DNA of 64,000 nucleotides from Planctomycetota bacterium. GTDB taxonomy: Bacteria > Planctomycetota > Phycisphaerae > Phycisphaerales > UBA1924. The translations under genes were made by a program, and so were the position numbers. Every line of letters begins with the position of its first letter. The first letter of the stretch is position 1. Shown here piece after piece: positions 5,480 to 59,547 of the stretch. Where the stretch lies: assembly GCA_039819165.1 (NCBI GenBank), contig JBCBSM010000001.1, forward strand, positions 1,240,001-1,304,000. The letters run 5' to 3'. The notes beneath the pieces were generated by a model. It had not been told where the DNA came from. It ran no database searches and was given only the letters and a program-made list of their open reading frames with translations.

Positions 5480-6667
5480 CTACTCGTCGGGCGTCGCCGG
5501 CTTCATCGCGAAGACGCGGAAGTCCGTCGGCGACGTCGGCAGGGGCGACAGCAGCACGTAGGGCCGATCGACGCTTGCGGTCCGGCGGGGGATGTAGTCC
5601 TCGGCCAGCACCCGGCTCGCGCGGCCGGCGTTCTGGCCCGTGGGCGTCCACAGCACCAGGCCGTCGGGCGTGGCGCAGAGCGCACGACCGCCGCCCGCAC
5701 CCACCGCCGCCACGCCGTTGGGCGCCAGCGACACCAACGTCCGCCGCGCCGCATTAACCGCAACAACGCGCTTCGTCGCGGGGTGAAAGACCATCGGACC
5801 GAGTGCCTCGCCCGCCGACGCGCCCGAGGCCGACGCGGCGACGATCTGCTCGGCGCCCGCGAGCGAGCCCCTGCCCGAGAGATCGAATCGCCGAACGATC
5901 CGCCCGAGCGAGCGGTCGCTGGACGCGGACAGGTCGATCAGCACGATCTGGATCGAGTCCGGCCGCACGGCGAGGCACGTCGCGTGCCGGCCGTCGGGCG
6001 CCATGAGCGGGTACACGAGATCGGCGCCGGGCAGCCGCAGGGCGCGCTTGGTGCCGTCGCGGTCGCGACGGACGAGCTCGAACCGGCCGTCGCCAACCGG
6101 ACGCTCGCCGTAGAGCACCGAGCCGGCGGGGCCGAGCACGGCGTGCGCGTGGACGGCGGGTCCGCGCTCGATCCAGGTGATGCCGCCGCCGGTCCAGCTC
6201 GCCCGGCCGATCCAGCGGGAGCCGTCCGGCCGCGGCGATTCGACGAGGAAGCCCAGCGTGTCCGCATCGCGTCCCAGCAGGATGGGCGCGTTGGCGTCGA
6301 AGACCTCCTGCTGCACGCCGTCGGGGCCGAGCTCGATGATGGCGACCGAGGATGATGCGTCGCCATCGGCGCCGGGAGCCCCGATGCGGAGCGATCGCGG
6401 AGCCGCCGGCGGCAGCTGCGTGGCGGCAGAGCGTCCATCGGGCGAGATCAGCGGCAGCGTCACGCCGTCGTAGGGAATGGTGCCCAGGCCGCTGAGCGCC
6501 ACGACGATCCGCGAGACGTCGGTGCCGCCCAGCACGGGCCGCGCAATGGGCCGATCAAAGATCGGATTGCGCGAGCCCCCCGGGGCGTCCGCCCGCTCGG
6601 TCACGCAGCCCGCCAGCGCCATCACCGCCGCAGCGCCGGCGAGCACCGCTGGTGCGCGCACGCTCAC
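5480..6667 (-). CDS. lipoprotein with propeller-like repeats, last gene of the T2SS operon
   Basis: 395 residues. Starts with GTG overlapping the gspD stop (GTGA). N-terminal lipoprotein signal with lipobox ALAGC near residue 20. The body contains repeated short motifs typical of TolB/WD40-like beta-propellers (LISPDGRSAA, LMAPDGRHATCLAV, CATPDGLVLWTP) but I cannot name a family. Its place directly after the secretin gene suggests an accessory role in secretin assembly or in the outer membrane; classical GspS pilotins are much smaller and helical, so this would not be a classical pilotin. The gene converges with the M14 peptidase gene, with only 10 nt between stops. Confidence 0.7.
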   Translation of the reverse strand: MSVRAPAVLAGAAAVMALAGCVTERADAPGGSRNPIFDRPIARPVLGGTDVSRIVVALSGLGTIPYDGVTLPLISPDGRSAATQLPPAAPRSLRIGAPGADGDASSSVAIIELGPDGVQQEVFDANAPILLGRDADTLGFLVESPRPDGSRWIGRASWTGGGITWIERGPAVHAHAVLGPAGSVLYGERPVGDGRFELVRRDRDGTKRALRLPGADLVYPLMAPDGRHATCLAVRPDSIQIVLIDLSASSDRSLGRIVRRFDLSGRGSLAGAEQIVAASASGASAGEALGPMVFHPATKRVVAVNAARRTLVSLAPNGVAAVGAGGGRALCATPDGLVLWTPTGQNAGRASRVLAEDYIPRRTASVDRPYVLLSPLPTSPTDFRVFAMKPATPDE

Positions 6668-9162
6668 GGTTCCTGGCCGTCGTCGGCGGGCGGGCCGAAG
6701 CGCTCGGGCTCCTCGATGTCCACGACGCCGTCGAGGCCCAGCGTCTCGCTGAGGCTGTCGAGCCGATCGATGTAGGGCTCGTTGAGCAGCTCGGCCTCCT
6801 CGGCGTTCTCGACCACCAGCGGCGTGATGAACACGAGCTGCTCGGTGGTGTTGGTGACGGTCTCGCTCGAGCGGAAGAGCCAGCCCAGGAGCGGGATGTC
6901 GCCCAGCACCGGGATCTTGCGCCGCAGCACGCTGTCCTCGTTGCGGAGGATGCCCGAGATCACCAGCGTCTGTCCGCTCTGGATGATGAGCTGCGTCGTG
7001 GTCTCGCGGCGATCCACGACGACCTGGCCCGACGCGGCGTCCTGCCCGGGCGCGATCGTGCTCAGCTCGACGTTGACCAGCAGGTCCACGTCGCGGTTGG
7101 GCGTCAGCCGCGGCCGCACCCGCAGCTGGATGCCCACCGCGCGATACTCGAAGCCCTGCGTCAGCGAGCCGACGTCGGTGGTCTGCGCCTCGGTGATAAA
7201 GGGGATGTCCTGGCCGTCGAAGAACTCGGCCTCTTGATTGTCGCTCGTGAAGATCGTCGGGCGGCTGAGGATGTTGACGTCGGTCTTCTCGCCGAGCGCC
7301 TGGAGCACCGCATTGAGGTCCACGCCCACGTTGATCACCGACGTATCGAAGGCGGCGCCGAAGAGATCGCCCTCGCTGGCCTCGGTGGTCGAGGTGAAGG
7401 AGATGGCGTTGTCGATCCGGCTGAGCGGGATCGACTCGCTCGACCACCGCAGCCCCACGACCTCCGCATCGTCGCGGCTGACCTCGGCGATGACCGCCTG
7501 GATGAGCACCTGGCGGCCCGGACGATCGAGCTGCTCGATCATCTCGACCACGGCGTGGCGGTACTCGGGCGGCGAGAGGATCATCAGCGCGTTCTGCCGC
7601 CAGACCGGCACGATGCGGAGCCGTCCGATCAGGTTGGACGAGCCGGCGTTGTCGGTCTGCTCCTGGGAGGTCTGCCACCAGAACGTGATCTCGCCCGGAT
7701 CTTCTTCCGGCACGTCGCCGTCCTCGTCGGCGTCGCCCGAGAATGGGCTGACGCCCACGCCGCCGGTGTCGGACAGCCCCGTCTCCGAGCGGGGGATGGA
7801 CGCGAGCGTGCCGTCGAGGGCGAGCAGCGCGTTGAGCTGCTCGGCCAACTCCTCGGCCGACACGTGCTTGAGCGGCACGACGACGGGTAGGCCCACGGTC
7901 TTGGGGCGATCCAGCTCGCGGATGATGTCGTCGATGACGGCGAGGTTGTCGGGGCTCTTGGCGACGACGACGAGCTGGCCCGCCGACGGGATCGCCTCGA
8001 AGGCGAACTGCCCCGCCAGCCGACCAACGCCCTGCGATTCTCCGGTGCTGGCCCCCGCCTGGCCGCCCCGGCCGCCCTGGCCGCCGGTCGCCGGCGCCGC
8101 GGCGGCCTCGGCCTCGCCGAAGAGTCCCTCGAGCAGGTCGCGCACCGCGATGGGATCGCTGTTCTCGAGCGTGTAGATGCGGGGGACGACCGCCTCGTCG
8201 GGCAGGGGCAGGTCCCACTCCTGCTCGATCAGGCCGCGGATCTGGTCCAGCACGCCCTGCTCGGCGGCCACGGTCACCGCATTCTGCTGGGTGTTCGACG
8301 TCACGCGCAGGTCCGCCGTCGTGGAACCCGAGGAGCCCTCCTCGTCGCCGCCGCCGCGGCGGAAGCCGCCGAAGAAGCGGTTCTGCTGATTGTTCTGGTT
8401 GGTGGAGGTGCCGCCCTCCTCGCTGAACAGCTCGGTGATGTTGGCGGCGATCTGCTCGGCGTCGGCGTACCGCAGGCGGAACGTCTGGGTGACAAGCGCC
8501 CGCGAGCCCGGGCGGTCCATGCCGTCGATGAGCGCCTCGATGCGCCGGAGCAGCCCGATGTTTCCCAGCACCGCGATGTGGTTGGAGCTCTCATCGACGG
8601 TGATCTTGGCGTACTCGGGGAGCGTCTCGCCGATGGCCTCGCCTAGATCGACGGCGACCGAGTTCTCGATGCGGAAGACCTTCTCGGCCATGGCGCCCAG
8701 GTCCCGGCGGCCCTCGACCCGTTCGTCCGGGCCGATGACCGGCACGTCCTGGCGGACGACCTCGTTGATATCCCGCAGGATGATGATGTCATCGGTTTCG
8801 ACAACGGCCACGCCGTCCTGCTGCAGCGCGAGGATGACCAGATCGAGCGCCTGCATCCGCGGGATCGGACGGTCGCTCATGACCGTCACGCGCGCCGGCA
8901 GCCGAGCCTCGGGCACGATCACGACCTTGCCGGTCGCCTCGACGATGAACGGAATCAGATCGTCGATCGATGCGTCCTGGAACGTCAGCGTCGCCGGCGG
9001 GCCCTCGAGCACGCGGCGGCCGTTGGCCTCGGGCTGCTGCGGGACAGCGGGCTGGGCCTCGTCCTGCGCGCGCACGAGCGACGCGGCGAGGCCCGCGTGC
9101 GCCACGAGGCTCGCGACCAGGACGGCCAGGGGCGTACGGGGCGTGATCCGGGATCGCGGCAT
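6664..9162 (-). CDS. gspD: type II secretion outer-membrane secretin GspD
   Basis: 832 residues from the ATG at 9162 (AAGGAAG about 7 nt upstream, then signal peptide with LAVLVASLVAHAG). N0 domain at about residues 50-130 (LTFQDASIDDLIPFIVEA), then N1 (TQTFRLRYADAEQIAANI), N2 (VPRIYTLENSDPIAVRDLL) and N3 (PVVVPLKHVSAEELAEQL). The secretin barrel domain spans about 545-800 with QVLIQAVIAEVS, a VGIQLRVRPRL core and the C-terminal IPVLGDIPLLGWLFRS. A Gln/Asn- and Gly-rich insert lies in the N1-N2 region (plus-strand 8300-8420). Forms the outer-membrane channel. Preceded by the GspC-like gene with a 20-nt gap and followed by a lipoprotein gene with 4-nt overlap. Confidence 0.95.
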   Translation of the reverse strand: MPRSRITPRTPLAVLVASLVAHAGLAASLVRAQDEAQPAVPQQPEANGRRVLEGPPATLTFQDASIDDLIPFIVEATGKVVIVPEARLPARVTVMSDRPIPRMQALDLVILALQQDGVAVVETDDIIILRDINEVVRQDVPVIGPDERVEGRRDLGAMAEKVFRIENSVAVDLGEAIGETLPEYAKITVDESSNHIAVLGNIGLLRRIEALIDGMDRPGSRALVTQTFRLRYADAEQIAANITELFSEEGGTSTNQNNQQNRFFGGFRRGGGDEEGSSGSTTADLRVTSNTQQNAVTVAAEQGVLDQIRGLIEQEWDLPLPDEAVVPRIYTLENSDPIAVRDLLEGLFGEAEAAAAPATGGQGGRGGQAGASTGESQGVGRLAGQFAFEAIPSAGQLVVVAKSPDNLAVIDDIIRELDRPKTVGLPVVVPLKHVSAEELAEQLNALLALDGTLASIPRSETGLSDTGGVGVSPFSGDADEDGDVPEEDPGEITFWWQTSQEQTDNAGSSNLIGRLRIVPVWRQNALMILSPPEYRHAVVEMIEQLDRPGRQVLIQAVIAEVSRDDAEVVGLRWSSESIPLSRIDNAISFTSTTEASEGDLFGAAFDTSVINVGVDLNAVLQALGEKTDVNILSRPTIFTSDNQEAEFFDGQDIPFITEAQTTDVGSLTQGFEYRAVGIQLRVRPRLTPNRDVDLLVNVELSTIAPGQDAASGQVVVDRRETTTQLIIQSGQTLVISGILRNEDSVLRRKIPVLGDIPLLGWLFRSSETVTNTTEQLVFITPLVVENAEEAELLNEPYIDRLDSLSETLGLDGVVDIEEPERFGPPADDGQEP

Positions 9163-9182: not shown

Positions 9183-9713
9183 TCACGGCGAGCGGCCCTC
9201 GTCTGTTGGCAGCACCACCGCATCGCGGGAGAGCAGCGGGATGTCGAACTCCACGTCCTTCCACACGACCCGCAGCGACCATGGCGCGGCCGACGCGAGC
9301 ACCCGCAGGTCTCCGTCTGCCTCGCCGCCGACGACCAACTGGCGGTCGTCGTCGAACCACACCGAGCCGTTCACCACCGCGACGACCTTGGGCCCGCCGT
9401 AGGCGCTCGGCGGCGGTGGAGGCGCCGGCGGGGCCGCCGGCGGAGGCGGCGGGGCGGGGGGCGCGGGCGGAGGCGCCGGCGGCGGTGGAGGCGGCGGGGC
9501 CGAGGGCACGAAGAAAGCCGACCGCCCGTCGAAGGCCGACCGATAGCCCGCGGTCACGTCGCCGCTCGCCATGCGGCCGGCGGCCGAAGCCCCATCTTCC
9601 GGCACGTCGACCAACACGGACCGGACGGCGGCGGCGGCGCTCCACGCGAGCGCCACGCCCGCGGCCGCGCCGCACAGGCCCACGAGCATCCACGTGCGCG
9701 GCGTCGCCCTCAT
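9183..9713 (-). CDS. GspC/PilP-like inner-membrane protein with proline-rich linker
   Basis: 176 residues: one N-terminal transmembrane helix (WMLVGLCGAAAGVALAW), a polar stretch, a roughly 33-residue linker of almost only Pro and Ala (about 75-108), then a small beta domain (KVVAVVNGSVWF, WKDVEFDIPLLS). This order matches GspC or PilP, which span the periplasm and dock onto the N0 domain of the secretin. Position just before gspD supports this. Sequence similarity to either family is weak by eye, so the name rests on architecture and context. ATG at 9713 overlaps the upstream gspM-like stop by 4 nt. Confidence 0.6.
   Translation of the reverse strand: MRATPRTWMLVGLCGAAAGVALAWSAAAAVRSVLVDVPEDGASAAGRMASGDVTAGYRSAFDGRSAFFVPSAPPPPPPPAPPPAPPAPPPPPAAPPAPPPPPSAYGGPKVVAVVNGSVWFDDDRQLVVGGEADGDLRVLASAAPWSLRVVWKDVEFDIPLLSRDAVVLPTDEGRSP
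9411..9500 (-). repeat. low-complexity proline/alanine-coding repeat
   Basis: GC-only stretch of (GGCGGN)-type units that encodes the Pro/Ala linker of the GspC-like protein. Length could vary between strains by slippage. Confidence 0.8.
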
Positions 9714-10363
9714 GGCCGGCTCCGGCTGCGTGCGCCGCCGCGTTGCTCGCCCTCGGCGAGCGCCCAGGCGACGACCGTCATCGTCGCGTTCACCGAGCGA
9801 GTGCCATCGCCGGCGTTGCGGACCACCAGCCGAGTCAGCCCCGCGATGGCCGGATCGCCCTCGAGCGTGCCCACCGCGTGCGCCAGTTGCTCGGGCGAGG
9901 ACACGAATTGCACCGTGCTCTCGAGCTGCACAAGCGATCCCCGGTCGCCGTAGGCCCGCGTCGCCGGCCCGTCGGGCAGGACCCGCGTCGAGGTGTCGGT
10001 GCGAGCGTCCCGCACGCCGGCGTCGCGCAACGCCGCATCGACCGCACGGTTGAGCGCGATGGCCCGTTCGCTCCGCGGCTCGGGCGCGTGGATCGGGCCG
10101 TGCAGCCGCGAACCGAACGCGATGGTGCGTGCATCGGCCTCGGCCCGCTCGCCCATCTCGGCGACGGCTCGGATCCTGGCCTCGGCCTGCTGGGCGTCTC
10201 GAGAAGCCCCTACGACCGCATCGACGATCGGTTCCGCGACGGCGAAGTAGGCCGCGAAGCCACCGACCGCCCACAGCGACCATCGCATCGCGCGGGGCAG
10301 CCGCCGGTAGGCCGCCACGAGCCCCCCCGCCGGTGCCGTCGATGGATCCGACACGCCGGTCAT
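9710..10363 (-). CDS. gspM: T2SS inner-membrane protein GspM-like
   Basis: 217 residues from ATG 10363, which overlaps the gspL stop (ATGA). One transmembrane helix near residues 25-45 (RWSLWAVGGFAAYFAVAEPI), a coiled-coil-like segment, and a periplasmic ferredoxin-like alpha/beta region. Size, single N-terminal helix and place after gspL fit GspM, which partners GspL in the inner-membrane platform. GspM sequences are poorly conserved, so the call depends on gene order. Confidence 0.65.
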   Translation of the reverse strand: MTGVSDPSTAPAGGLVAAYRRLPRAMRWSLWAVGGFAAYFAVAEPIVDAVVGASRDAQQAEARIRAVAEMGERAEADARTIAFGSRLHGPIHAPEPRSERAIALNRAVDAALRDAGVRDARTDTSTRVLPDGPATRAYGDRGSLVQLESTVQFVSSPEQLAHAVGTLEGDPAIAGLTRLVVRNAGDGTRSVNATMTVVAWALAEGEQRGGARSRSRP

Positions 10364-12228: not shown

Positions 12229-13563
12229 TTATCGAACGATCAGATCCTGGATCGTGACCGGCAGCCGCGAGCGATCCACCACGGCGATGACCTCGACCTC
12301 CACGCCCGAGGCCCGGTCCCGGCCCACGCTCCGCACCACGAAGGTCGAGCTGCGGAAGCAGAACTGGGACAGCAGCTGCTGCACCCGGCCCCGCGTGAGA
12401 TCGGGGATCTCGAGCAGGTCGGCCGCCGTCCGGAATCCCAGCGGTCGCCCGTTGCGCTCGGCGATGAGCGCATCGGCGATCGAGGTCGTCACCCCCGGCG
12501 CATAGCCCAGCACGTCTTCGTGCACGGTGTTGATGTTGATCCGCCCCGGCAGCCTTGGGCCCGCGGCGTCGAGCCACTCGCCGTCGATGGCCGCCTCCTC
12601 GAGCAGCAGCCCGAGCTGCTCGTCGGTCAGGTCGGGCACGTCGGCGTTGATGATCTGGTTGCCGATGCCCCGCAGCGACGATAGATCGGTCGTGACAAGC
12701 GCCTCGAGCGAGGACGTCGGCAGGGCGGCATACTCGCCCAGCACCTCGGCCTGCTCGCCGGACATCCCCGTCCGCGCGACGAGGTCGCCCGTCCCCAGGC
12801 CCAGACCCAGGCGGACCTTGGGCTCGCCGCTCAGCCCGAGCGTGGTCTCGCTGGGCAGCACCGTGATGATGCCCGACCAGCCGGCGTCCAGCTCGCCGTC
12901 GGCGTCGTCGGGCGGCCAGGTGTCACCGCCGTCGTTCTCGTTGGGGTCGAGCACGCCGTTGAGGTTCCAGTCCTCCTCGCGCACGTCCGTGGGAAGGATG
13001 CCCGAGATCAGCTCCAGCTCCTCGATCGTCTGCGGCACGCCGTTGCGGGGCTCGTAGGGGTACGGCTGCGAGAGGTACACGCCCAGCTCGGCGCCCAGTG
13101 GCGAGGTGTCGTCGTCCTCGTCGGCCCAGTCGATGATCCGCGAGATCAGGTCCTCGGTCATCGATGGCAGCCAGAACAGGTCCTCGGCGGTCATGCGGGA
13201 CACGTGGATGCGCCCGTGCGCGTCGGACGGGCCGGCGAGGCGATCCTCGCGGTCCCAGGTCTCGATGTCGAACGAGGCCCGGTCGCCAACGTCCATCGCG
13301 GCGTCCTGCGCGAGCCGCTCGTAGACGTGGAACGCATCCGAGGGGTGCGGATCGCGGGCGTCGTCGGCCAGGATCGCGATCGCCTGCTCGACGCCGGAGA
13401 TCGCCGCCCAGCGGGCGTGCACCTCGGCCACGCTGTCGCGGGCGCCGAAGGCCTGCCCCAGCCCGGCGGACTGCACGCCCATGACGAGCACGGCCGCCAG
13501 GCCGATGACCCACAGCACCACGACCGTGGCGAAGGAGCGCCGCGTCTGGCCGCCGGCATTCAC
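12229..13563 (-). CDS. gspK: T2SS minor pseudopilin GspK
   Basis: 444 residues from a GTG at 13563 overlapping the gspJ stop (GTGA). N-terminal prepilin-type helix RRSFATVVVLWVIGLAAVLV lacks Glu at +5, as is usual for GspK, and has Ser at the predicted -1 position. The large periplasmic domain is GspK-like: an Asp-rich calcium-type region (IIDWADEDDDTSP), an acidic insert (DPNENDGGDTWPPDDADGE), RININT near residue 355 and helix-hairpin-helix-like repeats near 375-420. GspK caps the pseudopilus with GspI and GspJ. Confidence 0.85.
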   Translation of the reverse strand: MNAGGQTRRSFATVVVLWVIGLAAVLVMGVQSAGLGQAFGARDSVAEVHARWAAISGVEQAIAILADDARDPHPSDAFHVYERLAQDAAMDVGDRASFDIETWDREDRLAGPSDAHGRIHVSRMTAEDLFWLPSMTEDLISRIIDWADEDDDTSPLGAELGVYLSQPYPYEPRNGVPQTIEELELISGILPTDVREEDWNLNGVLDPNENDGGDTWPPDDADGELDAGWSGIITVLPSETTLGLSGEPKVRLGLGLGTGDLVARTGMSGEQAEVLGEYAALPTSSLEALVTTDLSSLRGIGNQIINADVPDLTDEQLGLLLEEAAIDGEWLDAAGPRLPGRININTVHEDVLGYAPGVTTSIADALIAERNGRPLGFRTAADLLEIPDLTRGRVQQLLSQFCFRSSTFVVRSVGRDRASGVEVEVIAVVDRSRLPVTIQDLIVR

Positions 13564-14243
13564 GGGGCACCCCCGCCGAGCGTCTCGGCCAGCGTCGCCT
13601 GCGCGTGCACCCGGGGCAGCGAGGCCACCCGCCGCGCCGTCGCGGTCGCCCGCCCGTCGGCCGACCGCGCGACCACCTCGATGACCACCATGTGGGGCAG
13701 GCCCAGCGCATCGGAGTCCCACTCGGCGTAGTAGCCCTCGGCGTCGGCGGCGAGGATGGACAGCGACGCGATGCCCGCCGCGACCTCGGTCGCCACGCCG
13801 CCGGCGTCCTGGAACTCGTCGAAGGCCATGTCCCGCCGCCGCCACAGCGCCGGGCCGTCGGCACCGTCGACCACTCGGTAGCCGATCTCGAACTCGCCGC
13901 CATCGCTTCGCAGCGACAGTTGATCGACCGGCCGCACGGGCTCGAGGCCGCGCGCGAGCACGGCGATGGAGTCCCGCGCGTCGCCGCGGCCGCCGTCGCG
14001 GATCAGCAGCCGCGTCTGCGCGAGATCGAATCGCCGCAGCGTCTGCAGCACGGACCGCTGGACCATCTGCGCGGCACGGTCGGCGTTGGTCCACGCGTCG
14101 GCGCGCGCACGCGATGCCGCACGGGAGCGGCCGAGCTGGTCCAGCGTCGACACGAGCAGCCCCGCGATGAGCGCAAGCACGGCCGCCGCGGCGAGCGTCT
14201 CGACCAGCGTGAACGCGGCACGGCGTGTGCGTCTGCGGGGCAT
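13560..14243 (-). CDS. gspJ: T2SS minor pseudopilin GspJ
   Basis: 227 residues. ATG at 14243 shares a base with the gspI stop (TGATG). Prepilin leader MPRRRTRRAA followed by FTLVETLAAAAVLALIAG, so cleavage would leave Phe at +1 and Glu at +5; the -1 residue is Ala rather than Gly. The domain after residue 40 (VLQTLRRFDLAQTRLLI onward) has the size and beta-rich look of GspJ. Third of four minor pseudopilin genes in standard H-I-J-K order. Confidence 0.85.
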   Translation of the reverse strand: MPRRRTRRAAFTLVETLAAAAVLALIAGLLVSTLDQLGRSRAASRARADAWTNADRAAQMVQRSVLQTLRRFDLAQTRLLIRDGGRGDARDSIAVLARGLEPVRPVDQLSLRSDGGEFEIGYRVVDGADGPALWRRRDMAFDEFQDAGGVATEVAAGIASLSILAADAEGYYAEWDSDALGLPHMVVIEVVARSADGRATATARRVASLPRVHAQATLAETLGGGAP

Positions 14244-14680
14244 CAGCGGTCGATGGGCTCCGGAGGCTGGCGGTTGGGGTCGGGATCGTCGCCCAGGCGA
14301 GGGGCGATCAGGGCCCGCAGCTCGAAAGAACGCGGCCGGCCACCGCTGGATTGCCACGAGACCCGCACCAGAACCTCGTCGGCGTCGCCGGCGCTGCCCT
14401 CGTCGACGTCCACGCGGTAGCCGTAGCGGGCGAAGGGCGGCGACGCCGTGCCGCGGGCGGCGATCACCGTCCGATAGTCCTCCGTGCCGTACGCGTGCAC
14501 GATCGACATGATCTCGTCGGCGACCATGGCCGCCTGGCGGAGCTCGCCGGCCTGCCGCTGCACCGAGATGGCCCGCACCGACACCGACAGGATCGCCGCC
14601 AGCGTGATGCCGAGCAGCACCGTCCCGACGATGACGTCGACCAGCAGGAAGCCGCGCCCCGAGCGCCGGCGGGCTACCAC
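14243..14680 (-). CDS. gspI: T2SS minor pseudopilin GspI
   Basis: 145 residues from GTG 14680, which lies inside the end of gspH (7-nt overlap). Leader VVARRRSGRG then FLLVDVIVGTVLLGITLAAI; Gly at -1 but Asp, not Glu, at +5, which is uncommon. The soluble domain (RRSFELRALIAP near the end in the form RPRSFELRAL) is short, as for GspI. Position between gspH and gspJ supports the call. Confidence 0.8.
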   Translation of the reverse strand: MVARRRSGRGFLLVDVIVGTVLLGITLAAILSVSVRAISVQRQAGELRQAAMVADEIMSIVHAYGTEDYRTVIAARGTASPPFARYGYRVDVDEGSAGDADEVLVRVSWQSSGGRPRSFELRALIAPRLGDDPDPNRQPPEPIDR

Positions 14681-15219
14681 GGCGCACTCTCCAGGCCCGA
14701 GGCGTCGAGATCGATGCGGCCGGGCGGCCGAAGGTCCCCACCCTCTGCGACGACGGCCCGCAGCGCGCCGGGGAATAGCGTCACGAAGACCTCGTCGCCG
14801 CCGCGGCTGAGGCCGAGATCGAGCCCCACGCCCCCGCCTACGGACGACAGCTCGACGACGTAGGGCTCGCCGCGCACGGCCACGCCGTTGGCGAACACCC
14901 GCGAGACCCGCCCGCCGTCGAGCGTCACCGGCGGCAGCAGCGGATCGCTCCGCCACGCCCACGCCTCCCGGCCCCGGCGGTCCCGCTCGAGCACCCGCCG
15001 CTCGACGCGGACCGCATTGGCGTCGGCCCGCACCCGCAGCGGCTGGGATGACACCGCCTGGCGGCCCGCGGCCCTCGACAGCAGGTCGGCCACGTCCGCC
15101 GCCTCGGCATGGAGCGTGCGACTTCCGAGGCTCAGGGTGCGCGGCACGGCGACGGCCATCACGATCCCCACGACCAGCAGCGTGATCAGCAGCTCGAACA
15201 GCGTGAAGGCGCGGTGCAT
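14674..15219 (-). CDS. gspH: T2SS minor pseudopilin GspH
   Basis: 181 residues from ATG 15219, which places a very short leader (MHRA) before FTLFELLITLLVVGIVMAVA, with Glu at +5 and Ala at -1. An upstream in-frame ATG at 15261 would give a 14-residue longer leader but lies inside gspG. Soluble domain contains GspH/FimT-like strands (LLSRAAGRQAVSSQPLRVRA). The gene sits 10 nt after the gspG stop. Confidence 0.85.
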   Translation of the reverse strand: MHRAFTLFELLITLLVVGIVMAVAVPRTLSLGSRTLHAEAADVADLLSRAAGRQAVSSQPLRVRADANAVRVERRVLERDRRGREAWAWRSDPLLPPVTLDGGRVSRVFANGVAVRGEPYVVELSSVGGGVGLDLGLSRGGDEVFVTLFPGALRAVVAEGGDLRPPGRIDLDASGLESAPW

Positions 15220-15229
15220 CGGCGGTCCA

Positions 15230-15688
15230 TCACGGCGCGGCGACGTCGGCGTCCTCGCCATCGCCGCCCGGTTCGCCGTCCTTGCCGTAGCTCACCACGT
15301 CGTAGTCGAAGTTCTTCTCGCCCGGCGCACGGAGGACGTACGGATTGCCCCACGGATCGATCAGGTCGTCGACGCTGTTGAGGTAGGGCCCCTGCCACTT
15401 GTCGGCGCCGGCCGAGGGCGGCTCGATCAGGAAGTCGAGCGAATCGCCATCAGGCAGGCCCTCCATGTCGATGCGGTAGAGCTCGACGGCCTGCGCGATG
15501 TTGTTGGCGCTCGACTTGGCCGCGCCCTGGCGGCCCTGCCCGATGCGGCCGAACAGCCGGGGCACCACCACCGCCGCGATGATGCCCAGGATCGTGATGA
15601 TCACGATCACCTCGATGATGGTGAAGCCGCGGCGGCGGCGTCCGCTGCGTTGTGCGCGTATCGGCATGGCGGGCGTTCCTCGTGTCAT
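15230..15688 (-). CDS. gspG: T2SS major pseudopilin GspG
   Basis: 152 residues from ATG 15688 (ATGA overlap with gspF; GGAG 9 nt upstream). A second ATG at 15667 also has AGGA 9 nt upstream and would give 145 residues. Processing site RRRRG|FTIIEVIVIITILG with Gly -1 and Glu +5 is canonical. The C-terminal GspG calcium loop is present (SYGKDGEPGGDGEDAD), a feature that separates GspG from type IV pilins. GspG polymerises into the pseudopilus. Prepilin peptidase is not in the window. Confidence 0.95.
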   Translation of the reverse strand: MTRGTPAMPIRAQRSGRRRRGFTIIEVIVIITILGIIAAVVVPRLFGRIGQGRQGAAKSSANNIAQAVELYRIDMEGLPDGDSLDFLIEPPSAGADKWQGPYLNSVDDLIDPWGNPYVLRAPGEKNFDYDVVSYGKDGEPGGDGEDADVAAP

Positions 15689-16935
15689 CCCAGGGCGCTC
15701 CCGGCGGCGTCCTGGAGTTCGAGCATGGGCAACAGGATGGCCAGTACGATGAAGCCGACCACCGAGGCCATCGCGATCACCAGCACCGGGGGCAGCACCG
15801 TCGTCACCAGCTTGAGGGTGACCTCGGTGCGCTCCTCCATGGCGCGGGCGGCGTGGCCCAGCAATTCCTCGAGCCGGCCCGACCGCTCGCCCATCGCGAC
15901 GATCTGGACCAGCATGGGCGGAAAGTACCCGCTCCGCTCCATCGGGGTTGCCAGCGTCTTGCCGTGCGTCACCTGGTCGATCACGTCGTCGATCACGCCC
16001 TCGAGCGCCCGGTTGCCCAGCGTGCCCTTGGTGATCTTCAGGGCCTGCAGCAGGTTGATGCCCGAGCCGGTCAGCGTGCCGAGCGTGCGGGTGAAGCGCG
16101 ACACCGCGACGTCCCGCGCCAGCGTGCCGATGAGCGGCAGGGCCAGCAGCGCCCGGTCGGTCTGCAGCCGGCCCTCGGGCGAGCGGCGCACCAGCACGAA
16201 GCCCACCACGGCAACCGCCAGCAGCCCGAGCACGAGCCACCACCAGCCCAGGATCAGGTCCGCGAAGGCCTGCACGACCTGCGTGGGCCAGGGCAGCGTG
16301 TCGATGGCGCCCGCAGCCTCGGCCAGGATCTTGGGCGCAATCACGGTCGCCACCAGGATGATCGACGCAACGCACAGCACCACGAGCAGCGCCGGATAGA
16401 TCGTCGCACCCATCACGGCGCGGCGCAGCCGCAGGTCGCGCTCCAGCAGGTCCGCCAAGTGCGTGAGCACCTCGCTCAGCCGGCCCGAGGCCTCGCCCGC
16501 GCGGACCATGCTGACCGCCAGATCACTCGCCACGCCGGGCTCGGTGGCCATGGCGTCGCCCAATCCGCGGCCGTGCTCGACCTGGTCGATGATGCGGTCC
16601 ATCAGCGCCCGCTGGCCGCCCGAGCGCCGCTGCCGCGCGATCAGCCGCAGCGCCTGCACGAGCGGCAGGCCCGCATCGAGGCCGGTCGCCAGCTCGCGGA
16701 CCATCGAGGCCCGCTGCGCACCGCTGAATCGGCCGCCGAGCGAGAAGCTCGCGGCCTGGCCCGGCGACGCCATCGCCTCGGCGCTCGAACCGGGCGCGCT
16801 CGTGCCTTCGAGCGACTCGACGGCCAGCGGCGTCAGGCCCCGGCGGCTGATCTCCCGGATCGCCGCCGCCCGCGAGGGCGCATCGACGACCGAGGCATCG
16901 CCCCCGCCGGCGGTCTGCACGCGGAAGCTGGGCAT
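15685..16935 (-). CDS. gspF: T2SS inner-membrane platform protein GspF
   Basis: 416 residues. ATG 16935 shares a base with the gspE stop (TGATG). Two T2SSF domains: about residues 80-200 (RELATGLDAGLPLVQALRLI, MVRAGEASGRLSEVL) and 285-405 (SRFTRTLGTLTGSGINLLQA, VAMGERSGRLEELL), each followed by hydrophobic helices; three transmembrane segments in all. The short N-terminal domain (SFRVQTAGGG) is typical. GspF is the polytopic core of the inner-membrane platform. Confidence 0.95.
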   Translation of the reverse strand: MPSFRVQTAGGGDASVVDAPSRAAAIREISRRGLTPLAVESLEGTSAPGSSAEAMASPGQAASFSLGGRFSGAQRASMVRELATGLDAGLPLVQALRLIARQRRSGGQRALMDRIIDQVEHGRGLGDAMATEPGVASDLAVSMVRAGEASGRLSEVLTHLADLLERDLRLRRAVMGATIYPALLVVLCVASIILVATVIAPKILAEAAGAIDTLPWPTQVVQAFADLILGWWWLVLGLLAVAVVGFVLVRRSPEGRLQTDRALLALPLIGTLARDVAVSRFTRTLGTLTGSGINLLQALKITKGTLGNRALEGVIDDVIDQVTHGKTLATPMERSGYFPPMLVQIVAMGERSGRLEELLGHAARAMEERTEVTLKLVTTVLPPVLVIAMASVVGFIVLAILLPMLELQDAAGSALG

Positions 16936-18614
16936 CAGCGGGCCCCATCCGCGGCCGGACCATCGCCGGCGGACTCCGAGACGGCGTCCTGCGTGGCGCG
17001 GAGCACCTCGCCGACGGTGGTCAGGCCCCGCGCCGCCTTGCGGAGGCCGTCCTGCCGCATCGTGATGTGGTCGGCCGATGCGGTCCGGAGCAACTGCTGG
17101 GCGTTCATCCGCTCGGTGATGGCCGCCCGCATCGCCCGCGTGACGGTGAGCACCTCGTAGAAGCCGATGCGGCCCTGGAACAGGTCGGGGCCGGCGTCGT
17201 GCGAATCGATCGGCTGGCCCGTTGCATCCGCGAAGAGCGCCCGCTCGTCGGGCGTCAGCCGCTGCCACTCGCTCTCGAGCGGCTCGTGGGGAAGCGCGTA
17301 CTTGGGCGCCAGGCGCCGGCCGAGCCGCTGGGCGATCGCCGCCTCCAGCACGCTGGCGAGCAGGAAGGGCTCGATGCCCATGTCCAGCATCCGCCCCACC
17401 GCGCTCGCGGCATCGTTGGTGTGCAGCGTCGAGAGGATCAGGTGGCCGGTCATCGCCGCCCGCACCGAGATCTCGGCGGTCTCGCCGTCGCGGATCTCGC
17501 CGACCATGATCACGTCGGGGTCCTGCCGCAGGATCGACCGCAGTCCCGACGCGAAGCTCAGCCCACGCTTGGGATTCACCGGGATCTGGTTGACGCCCTC
17601 CAGCTCGTACTCGACGGGATCCTCGATCGTGATGATCTTCTTGCGGGGGTCGTACAGCTTGCTGAGCGCGGCATAGAGCGTCGTGGTCTTGCCCGAACCA
17701 GTCGGCCCGGTGACCAGCACCATGCCGTGCGGGATGGCGATCAGCCGATCGACCTCGCCGCGGTCCTCCTCGCGCATGCCGAGCGTCTCGAGGTCGAGAC
17801 GCAGGCTCTGCTTGTCGAGCACGCGCATGACGATCGACTCGCCGTAGATCGTCGGCGCCGTCGACACGCGGATGTCGATCTTGCGGCCGTCGAACCGCAG
17901 CGTGATGTGGCCGTCCTGCGGCGCGTACCGCTCGGCGATGTTCATGCCGGCCATGATCTTCACGCGGCTCGTGATAGCCGGCTGCAAACGCTTGGGCGGC
18001 GAGTCCTGCTCGACGAGTACCCCGTCGATGCGGTACTTGACCTTGAGGTCCCGCTCGAAGGGCTCGACGTGCACGTCGCTGGCCCGCAGCCGGATGGCCT
18101 CGAGGATGACCAGATTGACCAGGTTGATCAGCGACGGCTGCTCGGCCATCCGGTGCAGGTCTTCGGCCTCGATGGACTCGAGGTTGGCCAGCATCTCGTC
18201 GTCGTCGCCCGCCTGCCCGAGGTTGGCCGCCATCGCGGCGGCGGTCGTGCCGTACTCCCGCTGCACGAGTGCGCGGAAGGCCGGCTCGGCGATCGCCACG
18301 GGCGCGACGGGCCTGCCGGCGAGCATCGAGGCCTCGTCGGCCGACGCCCAGTCGCTCGGGTCGAGCATTGCCAGCACGAGGCGGCCCTGCCGCTCGCCCA
18401 CCGGTGCCGCGTGCAGCCGCGCGACGTCGTCGCCCGATAGCAACCGCGCAATCGACGGCTCGACCGATGGTGGCTCGGTGAGCATCGCGGGCGGATCCGG
18501 GGGCGCACCGGCCGCGCCGTTCGCGACGGGCGATCCACTCGCGCCCGACGCGGCGTCACCGCGCGCCGGCGGCTGGCCGTTGGCCGGCGCCGCGGCGCGC
18601 GTCTCCCCTGCCAC
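16935..18614 (-). CDS. gspE: T2SS assembly ATPase GspE
   Basis: 559 residues from GTG 18614 (GGAG 9 nt upstream). An in-frame TTG at 18638 overlaps the preceding stop (TTGA) but has its purine run directly against it; it would add 8 residues. The N1E-like region covers about 30-150, the ATPase core about 180-500: Walker A GPTGSGKTT near residue 305, Asp box, Walker B DPDVIMVGEIRDGETAEIS, and a His box LSTLHTNDAASA. The four-Cys zinc motif usual in proteobacterial GspE is absent. Drives pseudopilus assembly. Confidence 0.95.
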   Translation of the reverse strand: MAGETRAAAPANGQPPARGDAASGASGSPVANGAAGAPPDPPAMLTEPPSVEPSIARLLSGDDVARLHAAPVGERQGRLVLAMLDPSDWASADEASMLAGRPVAPVAIAEPAFRALVQREYGTTAAAMAANLGQAGDDDEMLANLESIEAEDLHRMAEQPSLINLVNLVILEAIRLRASDVHVEPFERDLKVKYRIDGVLVEQDSPPKRLQPAITSRVKIMAGMNIAERYAPQDGHITLRFDGRKIDIRVSTAPTIYGESIVMRVLDKQSLRLDLETLGMREEDRGEVDRLIAIPHGMVLVTGPTGSGKTTTLYAALSKLYDPRKKIITIEDPVEYELEGVNQIPVNPKRGLSFASGLRSILRQDPDVIMVGEIRDGETAEISVRAAMTGHLILSTLHTNDAASAVGRMLDMGIEPFLLASVLEAAIAQRLGRRLAPKYALPHEPLESEWQRLTPDERALFADATGQPIDSHDAGPDLFQGRIGFYEVLTVTRAMRAAITERMNAQQLLRTASADHITMRQDGLRKAARGLTTVGEVLRATQDAVSESAGDGPAADGAR

Positions 18615-18634
18615 CGCCGATGGCTCCAACTGGG

Positions 18635-19894
18635 TCAACCTCCCCCGCCGAACTGGCGGATCACCGCGTCGGCGTCGAAACCCGACGAGGCGGACTTGGG
18701 CAGCCGCTCGGCCTGCTCGGGCGTGAGCAGGTCGCGGAGTCGCTGCTCGAATCGCTCGTCGATGGACTTGCGGTCGGCCGCGGCCTCGGTCGTCTTCGTG
18801 TCGTCGCCGCCCCAGCCGAACCAGGTGTCCTCGCCGGACTGCTGCTCGTCGATGGCCTCGGACCACCGCTGGTTGACGGGCGCCGCCTCGCGGGCGTATG
18901 CCTGCCGCAGGGCCTCGAGGCCCTCCCGCTGGGCGGTGTCTAGGTCGTCGAACTTCCCCGCGGCGTCCATCAATCGCTCCGCGCTGCTCTCGCGGTAGAC
19001 CTGCGGCCAGGTCCGCCGCTTGACCTCCAGGTCCCAGATCGGCTGCTGTTCGGGCGGCAGCGCCAGCTTGACCTGCCGGGCAAAACGCTCGTTGATGCCC
19101 TTGGCTTGCAGGCCAAGCTCCCGCATCGTGGCCATCTGCTCCTGCCAGGTCTCCATCATGGCCCCGCCCCACAGGTCCTCGTCGGGGTCGGCCATCTTCT
19201 CGAGTTGGGTGCGGCTGGTGCCGAGCATAAGGTCGATGAACCGCTTGTTGACGCCGTCGATCTCGGTCTCGTAGCTCTGCAGCGCCGCGGAAACGGCCTC
19301 GTTGTCATCGACCTCGGACTGCTTGCGGATCGCGTACAGGTCGATGCCCGCGCCGCTGATGGTGCCCATCTGGGAGGCCACCTCCCGCCGCCGCGCCCGC
19401 TCGACGCGGACGAATGCCTCTTCCTGCGCAGGCTCGAAGGCCAGCATCTTCAGGTCGGCCATGAAGTCGCTCTCGAGCGTGTCGGCCCGGTCCATGAACG
19501 CGAGCATGATCTTGCCGATCGCGGGCATGGACGCCTCCCAGTCCCGCGTTTCTTGCATCTCGTCCTGGATCTGCCGCATCGCCTCGCTGATGGTGTCGAC
19601 CATCTGCTTGTACTCGTCGAGATAGCCCTCGTGGAGCATCATCATGGTGCTCCGCTGGTCGCCGTCGAAGCGCATCAACTCGCCGTAGCCGCTGGCGGCA
19701 TCCCGCGAGATGGCGTAGTCCATGAACTCGCTGGCGTCGCCGCCCATGCCCATGCCGAACTGGGCTCGGGCCGGGCTCGCCGCGGCCAAGACCAGCCCGA
19801 CCGCCAGGGCGGCCAGCCCCAGCATGAAACCACACGACGACCGCCGGCACGCGAGGCCACGATCGCGCCACGTCTTCTGCAATTGAATTCTCAT
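18635..19894 (-). CDS. secreted LTxxQ-type helical protein A, first gene of the T2SS operon
   Basis: 419 residues from ATG 19894 (GGGGGA just upstream). Signal peptide about 1-45 (LAALAVGLVLAAASPARAQ). The mature part is almost wholly helical and charged. Two blocks align by eye with the next two genes: FVRVERARRR...IDLYAI (about 165-195) and TWPQVYRESSAERLMDAA followed by LDTAQREGLEAL (about 300-345). The end has LTPEQAERLP, an LTxxQ motif as in the periplasmic Spy/CpxP proteins. Its stop lies 20 nt before the gspE GTG, so it is co-transcribed with the T2SS genes. Periplasmic location likely; function unknown. Confidence 0.75.
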   Translation of the reverse strand: MRIQLQKTWRDRGLACRRSSCGFMLGLAALAVGLVLAAASPARAQFGMGMGGDASEFMDYAISRDAASGYGELMRFDGDQRSTMMMLHEGYLDEYKQMVDTISEAMRQIQDEMQETRDWEASMPAIGKIMLAFMDRADTLESDFMADLKMLAFEPAQEEAFVRVERARRREVASQMGTISGAGIDLYAIRKQSEVDDNEAVSAALQSYETEIDGVNKRFIDLMLGTSRTQLEKMADPDEDLWGGAMMETWQEQMATMRELGLQAKGINERFARQVKLALPPEQQPIWDLEVKRRTWPQVYRESSAERLMDAAGKFDDLDTAQREGLEALRQAYAREAAPVNQRWSEAIDEQQSGEDTWFGWGGDDTKTTEAAADRKSIDERFEQRLRDLLTPEQAERLPKSASSGFDADAVIRQFGGGG

Positions 19895-20016
19895 ATATCC
19901 CCCGATGCCGCGGCCGGCGAATGCTGGGCCGCACGGGTGCGTATTCCGCTCCGGCGGCATCCCGTTGCACGTCCGCGATCGGGCGTGCGTTCGGTAACCC
20001 GTCCCAGTCTAACAGC

Positions 20017-21231
20017 TTACCCGCCGATCCGGACGCCCCTCGACCCCGAAATCTGCGGCACGAATACCCCCGGAGCGGGCTCGTTGTCGGCAGCCGGCAG
20101 CCCCTCGAGCTGCGCGGCGGACAGGATCGCCGCGAGCCGATCCTCGATCCGCCGATCGAGGCCGGCCAGCGAATCCCCCGCGCGACTCCGGGCGGTCTCC
20201 TCCTCGCCTTCGCCCACGAAGTGGATCTGAACGCCGGGCGGCATGGTGCTCTCCGCCTCCTCCTCCCGCTCGCCGGCGACCCAGGTGGCCCGGATGGCGT
20301 CGGCCTCGTGCACGTGCCGATCGCGGAGCGCGACCAGGTCGGACCGCTGGGCGTCGTCGAGGTCCTCGATCGCCAGGGCGGCCTCCAGCCGGCGCTCCGC
20401 GGAGGTCGGCCGGTACACCCGCGGGAAGCCGCGCTCCAGCCAGGCGGTCCGCAGCGCGGCGGCGGGCTCGTCGCCCAGCACGCCCGCCAGGGCCCGCAGC
20501 GTGGACTCGCCCGACGCCTCGATGCGGGCATCGATCGCCCGGAGCTGCGCGAAGGGATCGTCGGCCCCGTCGTCGACGGCCAGCATGATCAGCATGTCGC
20601 CCTCGGGCTCCTCGATGGCCTCCGCGCGGCGGGCTCGCTCCTGCAAGGCGGCATCGACCCGCAACTCCCATTGGCGGAGGATCTCGGCCGCGTCGGAGTC
20701 GCCCGCAGCATCAGGGTGCACCTCGTGCAGCAGGTCCTCGATGTCCACGCGGGCGAGCGCACGCGACGCCTCGCCCAGCGACTTGTCCCGCCGGTAGCGG
20801 CGCTCGACGCGGGGCCAGCGTTCGTCCTGCTCGGGCGTGAGCATCGCCCGCAGATCGCCCAGGAGCATGGACTCGAGTTCGTTGATGGCGCTCGCCCGCG
20901 CGTCGCTCACCTCGGCCATGCGTCCCAGCAGGTGTTCGATCTGGCCCTCGTCCATGTCCTCGCGGACGCGCTCGATGGCCGCACGGAAGGCGTCGTCGGC
21001 CGCGACGCGGCCCGAGCGGAAATCCTCGAAGAGCGTGCGGGCGATGTCGCGCTGGGTCTCGTCCAGCTCGAGGTAGCCCGCGTATCGCTCGACGGACTCC
21101 AGCGAGAGCCGCGAGGGGCCCGCGCCCCCCATGCTTACGCCGCGGGTCATGACCACCGAGCGTTCCTGGGCCAAAGCCAGGGGTGGGAGCAGCGTGCAGG
21201 CGAGTGCGACGATGGCGGCGGCGCGCAGCAT
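20017..21231 (-). CDS. secreted LTxxQ-type helical protein B (paralogue)
   Basis: 404 residues, signal peptide AAAIVALACTLLPPLALAQE, then a helical charged protein. It carries the block LTPEQDERWPRVERRYRR (about 120-137) with a following VDIEDLL, and the block GFPRVYRPTSAERRLEAAL followed by LDDAQRSDLVAL (about 275-310). These match the flanking paralogues in order and spacing. The C-terminal part has an LSAAQLEGLP variant of LTxxQ. CGGAGA lies 8 nt before the ATG. Separated by 122 nt from protein A and by 110 nt from protein C, so it may have its own promoter. Function unknown. Confidence 0.75.
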   Translation of the reverse strand: MLRAAAIVALACTLLPPLALAQERSVVMTRGVSMGGAGPSRLSLESVERYAGYLELDETQRDIARTLFEDFRSGRVAADDAFRAAIERVREDMDEGQIEHLLGRMAEVSDARASAINELESMLLGDLRAMLTPEQDERWPRVERRYRRDKSLGEASRALARVDIEDLLHEVHPDAAGDSDAAEILRQWELRVDAALQERARRAEAIEEPEGDMLIMLAVDDGADDPFAQLRAIDARIEASGESTLRALAGVLGDEPAAALRTAWLERGFPRVYRPTSAERRLEAALAIEDLDDAQRSDLVALRDRHVHEADAIRATWVAGEREEEAESTMPPGVQIHFVGEGEEETARSRAGDSLAGLDRRIEDRLAAILSAAQLEGLPAADNEPAPGVFVPQISGSRGVRIGG

Positions 21232-21341
21232 GGTCGGTCTCCGGGATGGCCGCCCGCGGATGGCGACAATCCCGAAGATGCGCCCGGTCCGAGCGGTCGT
21301 CCCGGCGGGCGCGAAAAACCCTCTTTGCTGCAAATCGGGCC

Positions 21342-22553
21342 TCAGAATCGCCTGCGGGCGTCGCCCCCGCGGCCCCGCCGTCCGCGATCGCCCCGGCCGC
21401 CGCGCTCCCGGGCCTCGGGCCCCGCGGCCTCCTCCACGGCGGCGATCTGGGTCTCGTCGAGGATGGAGCGGAGCTGCTCGATGGCCCGCTCGCCGATGTC
21501 GCGGCGCTCGACGAATAGCTCGCGAGTGGCGTCGTCCCCGCCGCGATCGCCGCCGCGGGCGCGGCCGATGAAATCGCGGAGGGTCATGCTCTCCTCGGCG
21601 GACTGGATGGCCCGGGCGAGCCGGCCGTTGACCTCCGACATACGCCGGGTGGTCACGTCGGCGACGGCCTGGACCTGCTCGCGCTGATCGGGCGTGAGCC
21701 CCTCGAGGGCTGCGGCCGCCTCGATTGCGCGGGACGCCCGCGTGGGGCGGTACACCGTCGGGAAGCTGGCGCGCTCCACGGCGGCGGTGAAGGCATCGGC
21801 CTGCTCGGGGGCCAGGAAGCCCTCGATCCGCCGGGCGAAGGACCGGTGCGTGTCGCGGACACGCTCGCTGTCGCCGCGGGCGTCCTCCACGAAGCTCTGC
21901 AGCTCGTCGAAGCGCCGCTCGCGGAACAGCTCGGCGCCCTGCTCGTAGGCCGCGTTGCGCTGCACGAGCGCGCGATCGAGGGCCAGCTCGTATTCGGCCA
22001 GCACCGCGTCGACGTCGCTCGCGGCCCCCTCGGACAGGTCCATATCGCGAACGATGGCGAACAGGTCCACCCGCTCGCCCGACATCAGCCCGCGGGGCAG
22101 CGTCGTCGCGCGGCGATGGGCCCGCTCGACGCGGGGCCAGGCGGCCTCCTGTTCGGGCGTGAGCACGGCCTGCATGTCGGCCATGAACTGCTCCTCTGAG
22201 ACGCGGACGCGCTCGGTCGTCGACTCGCGGAGCTCGCGAACGCCCTCCCAGGCCGATCGGTCGCGGGTCTCCTCGAATTCGTCGCGGGCCCGCTGCATCG
22301 CCTCGCGCATGCCGTCGACGGCCGACTGCACGCCATCGATGTACTCCTCGTGGAGCACGCCCAGGATCTCGCGCTGGTCGGCGTCGAGTCCCAGCAGGTC
22401 GCCGTACTGGGCGAGCCGCTCGCGGGTAACCTGCGGGCCCTGGTCGCCGCCGCCGAAGAACTGGGCGTGAGCGGTCCCGGGCGCCAAGAGCAGCACGGCG
22501 ATTGCGATGCCGGCCGGACCGATCAGGGTGCGAATCGCGGAGCGCCTCAGCAT
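21342..22553 (-). CDS. secreted LTxxQ-type helical protein C (paralogue)
   Basis: 403 residues, signal peptide IGPAGIAIAVLLLAPGTAHAQ. AAGGGGGA precedes the ATG. Contains LTPEQEAAWPRVERAHRR (about 128-145) followed by VDLFAI, then SFPTVYRPTRASRAIEAAA and LTPDQREQVQAV (about 265-305), giving the clearest LTxxQ motifs of the three. The last 25 residues are Gly/Arg/Asp-rich (GGRGDRGRRGRGGD), probably disordered and able to bind acidic surfaces or nucleic acid. Divergent from panD over 138 nt. Function unknown. Confidence 0.75.
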   Translation of the reverse strand: MLRRSAIRTLIGPAGIAIAVLLLAPGTAHAQFFGGGDQGPQVTRERLAQYGDLLGLDADQREILGVLHEEYIDGVQSAVDGMREAMQRARDEFEETRDRSAWEGVRELRESTTERVRVSEEQFMADMQAVLTPEQEAAWPRVERAHRRATTLPRGLMSGERVDLFAIVRDMDLSEGAASDVDAVLAEYELALDRALVQRNAAYEQGAELFRERRFDELQSFVEDARGDSERVRDTHRSFARRIEGFLAPEQADAFTAAVERASFPTVYRPTRASRAIEAAAALEGLTPDQREQVQAVADVTTRRMSEVNGRLARAIQSAEESMTLRDFIGRARGGDRGGDDATRELFVERRDIGERAIEQLRSILDETQIAAVEEAAGPEARERGGRGDRGRRGRGGDARRRF

Positions 22554-22691
22554 GGGTCAGTCCCCCTTGGGGTGTCGTGGCATGGACTCCACCCGCGGCC
22601 CCGGCCGCCGGTCGCCTGCAGCGGGTCAACGCTGGGCCCAGCACACTATTGCCGACCCAGGGCCGCGGCGTCACTACGCTTGCGGCTTCCC

Positions 22692-23060
22692 ATGCTCCGC
22701 AAGGTCCTGCACAGCAAGATCCACCTGGCGACCGTGACAGCGGCGCGGCCGGACTACGTGGGCTCGCTGACCATCGATCGCCGGCTCTTGCGGGCCGTCG
22801 GGATGCGGGCCAGCGACGCCATCGAGGTGGCCAACACCGCCAACGGCGAGCGATTCGAGACCTACGTCTTCCTGGGCGGGCCCGGGCAGATCGAGGTCAA
22901 CGGGGCGGCGGCGGCCCTGGTGACGCCCGGCGACCGCCTCATCATCATGCACTACGCGCTCATGGACGACGGCGAATACCGCCGGCACCGCCCGCGGGTG
23001 GCCGTCGCCGGCGAGGGCAACACCGTGGACCGCCTGCTCCGCTACGAGCCCGGGCCCTAG
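22692..23060 (+). CDS. panD: aspartate 1-decarboxylase PanD
   Basis: 122 residues, the usual PanD size. Makes beta-alanine from aspartate for pantothenate and coenzyme A. The self-processing Gly24-Ser25 pair is in place (DYVGSLTID), where Ser25 becomes the pyruvoyl group, together with Lys9 (HSKIH) and the conserved NGAAA and PGDRLIIM segments. No Shine-Dalgarno is evident before the ATG. No other pantothenate genes are nearby. The 3' end overlaps the convergent glycosyltransferase gene by 4 nt. Confidence 0.95.
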   Translation: MLRKVLHSKIHLATVTAARPDYVGSLTIDRRLLRAVGMRASDAIEVANTANGERFETYVFLGGPGQIEVNGAAAALVTPGDRLIIMHYALMDDGEYRRHRPRVAVAGEGNTVDRLLRYEPGP

Positions 23061-56465: not shown

Positions 56466-56555
56466 CGGCCCTTCTATCGGTCCCTGTCCGGCCCTGGTCC
56501 AGCGGGCCGGCCTGGGAGAATCCCCGGGCCGGCGGCGGGCCGATTCTGCCGGCGA

Positions 56556-59408: not shown

Positions 59409-59547
59409 CGCAGACCTCCATGCCCGCGTGGCGAAGAGCCACAACTAGACTCATCGCCTATCGGCCGCGGACCGGAGGCGAATCGAGCCGGATGCTCAAT
59501 CGGCGGCGAACCCGGCCCAGCCGTGCGTCGTTCGTGCCGATAAGCCC

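Follow-up and report, generated by a model that had tools for sequence, protein, structure and literature searches.

Three-module Spy/CnrX-like proteins encoded beside one type II secretion lineage of Phycisphaerales

Upstream of gspE in a planctomycete genome lie three adjacent minus-strand genes whose products, of 403, 404 and 419 residues, are here called proteins C, B and A in the order of the array. They are part of a 64,000-nt stretch, referred to below as the window (Planctomycetota bacterium GCA_039819165.1, contig JBCBSM010000001.1, positions 1,240,001-1,304,000). The three proteins are paralogues, each is built of three homologous modules related to the LTXXQ kind of protein (Spy, CpxP, CnrX), and their genes are linked to a single clade of GspE, the ATPase of the type II secretion system (T2SS). 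This linkage makes it probable that the three proteins are helpers dedicated to one T2SS lineage. The fuller reading, in which they are exported soluble proteins that serve the T2SS as dedicated periplasmic chaperones or escorts, has about an even chance of being correct, and within it chaperoning is what we infer.

Paralogy and three-module architecture

A preliminary description of the window had reported three genes of these sizes, and the reading frames are confirmed. The similarity that it expected among their products is significant and far beyond chance (BLASTP E of 3e-37 for A-C, 9e-26 for B-C and 7e-18 for A-B). It had further described two sequence blocks, aligned in the same order. 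The proteins are indeed homologous and the blocks exist, but they are the last-helix ends of modules 1 (WPRVERxxRR) and 2 (FPxVYR) in a chain of three tandem modules. An alignment of 66 family members displays three regions of about 110-115 residues each that share one common pattern, in which a short helix leads to LxLDxxQ and is followed by two long helices in succession, LTPEQ and another short helix. Module profiles compared with hhalign match in register at 96.9% (modules 1-2), 97.9% (1-3) and 95.1% (2-3), and alignments made separately for each module (26 members each) give 97.3% (1-3) and 94.5% (1-2). Six reversed-profile controls reached at most 3.2% and 60 column-shuffled controls at most 8.4%, as against 95-98% forward, so that a chance likeness of helical proteins is rejected. 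AlphaFold2 models of C and A each contain three Spy/CpxP/CnrX-like helical units, and in the C model the ten-residue mean pLDDT is 91-98 across the body, except for 72 at residues 331-340. The shared fold that structure prediction had been proposed to reveal is thus present in both models, as three modules and not two, and the two-block architecture is dropped on the evidence of profiles and models alike.

Proteins of the LTXXQ family carry two LTxxQ-like motifs per module. Protein C contains five LxxxQ motifs, two in module 1 (LDADQ 56 and LTPEQ 131), two in module 3 (LTPDQ 286 and LDETQ 365) and a single one in module 2 (LAPEQ 247). The four-helix Spy fold is recognisable in the predicted models, both from their helices and from the matches to Spy, CnrX, NccX and STV listed in Table 1. 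At the level of sequence comparison the LTXXQ-kind relationship is backed independently of these models. Among 60 members, the Pfam LTXXQ model matches 25 and Metal_resist 6 at E ≤0.01; the curated LTXXQ cut-off is passed by three of the ten members scanned singly (L107, 30.5 bits; L116, 29.3; L115, 28.1), within module 1 in L107 and module 3 in L115 and L116. The window proteins stay below the PF07813 cut-off of 24.3 bits (22.5 for C, 15.2 for B, no match for A), and across their whole genome no LTXXQ match exceeds this cut-off. No NCBIfam model matched more than four of the 60 members, and single members matched the CpxP (1.4e-4) and Spy (0.01) models. Searched against PDB sequences, module 3 has STV as its top match (0.048) and module 1 finds STV at 0.0021, ranked behind two designed TPR proteins (1.3e-4 and 3.2e-4). 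Relatives of Spy or CnrX are absent from the 32 weak matches of module 2, which is therefore assigned from internal homology and the models. A search of the viral fold library returned no match at E ≤0.001.

The preliminary description had set the proteins apart from Spy and CpxP by length, since these have about 140-160 residues. This argument falls because a single module, at about 110 residues, has the size of a Spy/CnrX domain. The mature chains, of about 375 residues, comprise three such modules. By length and by the Pfam cut-off, A-C are no plain members of the Spy family but a variant of the Spy/CpxP/CnrX kind with several modules. Concatenation goes further in some of the unlinked relatives of family f2: proteins of 507-616 aa have four modules and proteins of 814-955 aa about six, and the weaker among these modules score poorly. 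An export-type N-terminal segment is visible by eye in 12 of 14 of these longer proteins. The exported relatives of 814-955 aa at L166, L168, L169, L170, L175 and L177 show about two family-profile matches each, i.e., about six modules.

Linkage to one GspE clade

In a first sample of 61 genomes (the window's own and 60 relatives), with the linked GspE lineage defined by E ≤2.8e-176, the family occurs in 39 and the lineage in 37. All of the latter (37/37) have a same-strand family match upstream of gspE, with 0.07-0.7 kb between its edge and the GspE match. Among 298 genomes of the class, the family is found in 34 at E ≤1e-10 and a GspE of at least 585 bits in 33, and the two sets coincide except for G290, which has a single weak match. 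Sixteen of the 33 were new with respect to the first sample; 15 of them show the linkage, and in the sixteenth, G282, gspE is cut by the contig end. In the pooled set, all 53 genomes with the GspE lineage carry the family and 52 have a same-strand copy upstream of gspE, the remaining one being G282, where the contig break prevents a reading of linkage. The 50 class genomes with another T2SS-type GspE (437-524 bits) have no family match at E ≤1e-10, and at the 18 of these loci that were read, where gspF- and gspG-like genes come after gspE, a family gene was found in 0/18 stretches even at E 10. In a GspE tree, 27 linked rows (chosen from 45 linked loci) lie on one side of a branch with SH-aLRT 99.2, with 18 unlinked and 2 PilB-like rows on the other; the linked GspEs form one clade. 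Fisher tests of the association between family and GspE, in which relatedness is ignored, give 1e-14 and 4e-43. The family-T2SS link is thus strong, and being encoded with gsp genes across genomes (52/53 versus 0/18 of the other GspE loci) is what is expected of a T2SS component. The survey of gene neighbourhoods suggested in the preliminary description gives strong support, by linkage and co-occurrence, to its proposal that the proteins serve secretion.

Of 294 genomes of the phylum, six match the family, all of the window's own order and already present in the other samples. A further scan of genome contigs gave 34 loci, nearly all from metagenome-assembled genomes titled Phycisphaerae, Phycisphaerales, Phycisphaeraceae or Planctomycetota; these are partly contigs already counted (e.g., L104 and G001:C177), so that the two counts overlap. 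Four loci bear other names (Leptolyngbya L108, Limnohabitans L127, Kuenenia L128 and Vicinamibacteraceae L137), which are probably binning or naming errors. A family gene directly precedes gspE in 24 of the 34. In six loci (L115, L129, L130, L132, L134 and L135) the stretch contains family genes without a called gspE of the linked kind, L125 stops at a contig end, and L127, L128 and L133 have no family gene called. Outside the order, G290 has at L151:7761-9768 a 318-aa protein distantly related to the family (profile E 1.4e-13) and, adjoining it, a weaker relative, with gspE not nearby.

Linked copies number 1 to 7 per locus, the largest array (L109:3300-12557) placing seven tandem family genes before one gspE. 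The gene beyond the array varies by lineage, being panD in the window and, judged by its N terminus, in congeners, and other genes elsewhere (by eye); general synteny is therefore an unlikely cause of the link to gspE. A tree of 66 members (20 adjoining gspE, 22 further upstream and 24 unlinked), built by a quick method and with many weak forks, groups 13 C-type rows (support 87; 12 of them at position 2 or beyond), 9 B-type rows (support 96; 8 linked) and, with the A copies of the window's genus, the unlinked copies of that genus (support 99). The C-type and B-type positional groups span genera. By these groupings, the array goes far back within the family of the window, and its order has largely been kept. 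In G051 the linked family gene (L102:8049-9198) runs over two overlapping reading frames, a split that may stem from a frameshift or an assembly error.

In the window, the gene for protein A ends at 18635, and a gspE start at the GTG at 18614 leaves the 20-nt gap given in the preliminary description. This start is uncertain, as TTG 18638 and ATG 18485 share its frame; because congener GspE alignments to the window GspE begin at residues 11-24, a start upstream of 18485 is favoured. A 4-nt overlap between the family stop and the called gspE start is seen in L103, L136 and L137. A scan of 18400-22800 for promoters and terminators found none where close to none would be expected (0.2 and 0.8), and is therefore silent on operon structure. 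The T2SS locus that follows A looks complete (Table 1). Of the pseudopilin-like genes at the H/I/J positions, the first has an N_methyl match, the third falls below the cut-off and the middle one has no Pfam match. The gspC-position protein (9183-9713), likewise without Pfam match, has a long proline-rich linker.

A search of the window's genome with C finds four places, namely A, B, C and a fourth paralogue at C1:1994936-1996024, whose gene (L064:6778-8070; about 1994777-1996069 on C1) is unlinked to gsp genes. The congeners L065, L066 and L067 have two unlinked copies side by side in the same neighbourhood as this fourth paralogue. Elsewhere in the window, GC skew flips from -0.08 to +0.07 within 56001-60000, where long genes switch to the minus strand.

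Table 1. Genes of the array, modules of the modelled proteins and genes of the gsp locus, in window positions (helical bundles can reach Z scores such as these without kinship)
Feature	Position	Strand	Properties and evidence
Gene for protein C, first in array	21342..22553	-	403 aa, three modules; BLASTP with A and B; AlphaFold2 pLDDT 88.1, pTM 0.83
C module 1	22089..22427 (residues 43-155)	-	Model helices; STV Z 9.9, rmsd 3.9, 105 aligned; Spy Z 8.3, rmsd 3.6, 89 aligned
C module 2	21744..22088 (residues 156-270)	-	Model helices; CnrX Z 11.4, rmsd 2.3, 107 aligned; no sequence-level relative
C module 3	21420..21743 (residues 271-378)	-	Model helices; homologous to module 1
Gene for protein B, second in array	20017..21231	-	404 aa; BLASTP with A and C; family profile E 1e-94
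Gene for protein A, last in array, adjoins gspE	18635..19894	-	419 aa; BLASTP with B and C; AlphaFold2 pLDDT 86.4, pTM 0.81
A module 1	19373..19705 (residues 64-174)	-	Model; NccX Z 8.6
A module 2	18995..19372 (residues 175-300)	-	Model; CnrX Z 9.6
A module 3	18695..18994 (residues 301-400)	-	Model; CnrX Z 9.3
gspE, T2SS ATPase	16935..18614 (start uncertain)	-	T2SSE 1.6e-125, MshEN 3.5e-10
gspF	15685..16935	-	T2SSF 7.4e-56
gspG, major pseudopilin	15230..15667	-	T2SSG 6.3e-28
Three pseudopilin-like genes, H/I/J positions	14674-15219, 14243-14680, 13560-14243	-	Named by position
gspK	12229..13563	-	T2SSK_1st 6e-10
Three genes, L, M, C positions	10360-12138, 9710-10363, 9183-9713	-	No Pfam match; assigned by position only
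gspD, secretin	6664..9162	-	Secretin 5.6e-44, GspD N0 8.9e-9

Probable dedicated helpers and competing explanations

Sequence features support export of all three proteins, each of which starts with a signal-peptide-like segment, as the preliminary description had noted; these segments end AHA/QF, ALA/QE or ARA/QF, with cleavage placed by eye. Among the called N termini of the 66 members, 36 have AxA at residues 15-48 and 24 have AxAQ, which are lower bounds because many of the starts as called are too short. The export signals of A, B and C, together with a fold shared with periplasmic proteins, support the periplasmic location that had been proposed for them.

If A, B and C are helpers of the T2SS, they would most likely act as ATP-independent chaperones or escorts in the periplasm. 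Cargo that has passed the inner membrane would be retained on the surfaces of the modules, or shaped there, until folded, and would then pass to the pseudopilus and secretin. With three fused modules a single chain would present a larger contact surface than a Spy dimer, and the diverged A, B and C may serve different clients or steps. There are precedents for both halves of this model, as the lipase foldase LipH is needed before T2SS export (excerpted text of PMC13381987) and Spy lets its clients fold while bound (excerpted text of PMC8144458). In its boldest form, to which slightly less than an even chance is given, the model describes a new class of T2SS periplasmic folding factor, made of concatenated Spy/CnrX-fold modules, acquired once with one Phycisphaerales T2SS clade and acting by multi-site cargo holding and hand-over to the secreton, with three modules at the gsp locus and four or about six elsewhere in the order.

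Several findings weigh against helpers of this kind. A, B and C are acidic (pI 4.5-4.9), as are 65/66 members (pI <7), and by sequence every module of A and C has a net negative charge; a basic Gly/Arg-rich tail is present in C and absent from A, such a polar tail occurring in 16/66 members. The client-binding face of Spy is, in the excerpts of PMC8144458 and PMC9122904, basic, and client release there uses an acidic disordered N terminus (PMC9122904), so that the electrostatics of A-C would differ if they are chaperones. Foldseek gave no match against the PDB at E ≤0.001 (best 0.46, with probability 1.00 and target TM 0.76), and the unrelated plant protein TGA3, with Z 9.5, equals the CnrX score for protein A. 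Sequences diverge fast (median end branch 0.74), and 76 of 150 copies, among the matches listed, do not adjoin gspE. The preliminary description had held that homologues without any association with secretion genes would speak against it; this is half the case, yet a linked copy exists in every testable GspE-lineage genome. Two genomes, G026 and G031, carry the family without a linked-lineage GspE and with other neighbours around their copies; they are the least complete assemblies (82% and 81%). Beside unlinked copies, no client-like neighbour recurs beyond close relatives (20 stretches first examined, then more), so that the idea of unlinked copies as chaperones encoded beside their clients is unsupported. 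In one group of close relatives (L078:3748-5544, L079:9238-11118 and L080:9903-11441), the unlinked family gene follows a same-strand gene for a large protein that looks secreted and repeat-containing by eye, a possible client pair.

Among other explanations, a structural or assembly part of the T2SS, e.g., a scaffold in the periplasm that docks on the secretin, the pseudopilus or the L/M/C-position proteins, is unlikely, though it would account for linkage to one GspE clade in 52/53 genomes and for the largely conserved array order. Proteins without Pfam match hold the L, M and C positions, which makes unusual T2SS parts plausible. However, soluble proteins present in variable number (1 to 7 linked) and with many unlinked copies are unlike a part of fixed stoichiometry, and their fold relatives are chaperones and sensors. 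Rather unlikely too is that A-C are themselves cargo which the T2SS exports, with genes at its locus and further multi-module paralogues at other sites of these genomes. Co-occurrence with one T2SS, unlinked copies included, would also be expected of cargo, and fast divergence and expansion to four and about six modules agree with it; Spy and CnrX, on the other hand, work inside the periplasm, a gspE-side copy is kept in 52/53 genomes, and G026 and G031, both incomplete assemblies, retain copies without the linked-lineage GspE.

CnrX-type metal sensors have conserved metal ligands, His and others, and CpxP and ZraP act on signaling proteins. A sensor or regulator of the CnrX/CpxP/ZraP type that signals envelope or metal stress and so adjusts the gsp operon is quite improbable, even with CnrX, a metal sensor, as the best structural match and with this action of CpxP and ZraP: mature A, B and C have no Cys, the 66-member alignment has no column with His >30% or Cys >20% (a measure blind to Glu/Met-only metal sites), the array neighbours in the window (panD, a glycosyltransferase and an MgtE-type transporter) include neither a kinase nor a sigma system, and the gene upstream of the array varies. 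Metal sensing is accordingly rejected for want of a conserved His or Cys column. The preliminary proposal of chaperones or regulators is made plausible by the Spy/CpxP/CnrX-like fold of the models, but acidic charge and absent His/Cys columns caution against transferring the mechanism of either Spy or CnrX.

Comparison with known periplasmic helpers

If A, B and C are dedicated helpers of the T2SS, the question of who folds T2SS cargo in planctomycetes becomes testable. The steric foldases of T2SS cargo are described, in the excerpted text of PMC13381987, as two classes only, those of lipases and those of proteases, and a multi-module Spy-like family fixed to one T2SS clade would add another kind of dedicated helper to these. 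Moreover, nature has here concatenated a Spy-type module into chains of three, four and about six, in which multi-site chaperone action would be measurable. Among the titles and abstract openings listed for LTXXQ/Spy/CpxP, the T2SS and planctomycete secretion, none deals with this family.

Like the steric foldases LipH/Lif, the family would consist of helical periplasmic helpers acting ahead of T2SS export (excerpted text of PMC13381987). No sequence kinship is claimed, and LipH differs in being membrane-anchored and encoded with its lipase rather than beside gspE. The metal sensors CnrX and NccX and the ZraP-like STV have the folds closest to the family modules, whereas the family has three modules, no conserved His or Cys column and, in the window, no sensor partner gene in its neighbourhood. 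With Spy and CpxP (PF07813) it shares LTxxQ motifs, the four-helix module, an export signal and the lack of any visible nucleotide-binding part. It differs from them in having three (or four, or six) modules on each chain where they have one, in being acidic and not basic, and in being fixed at a T2SS locus.

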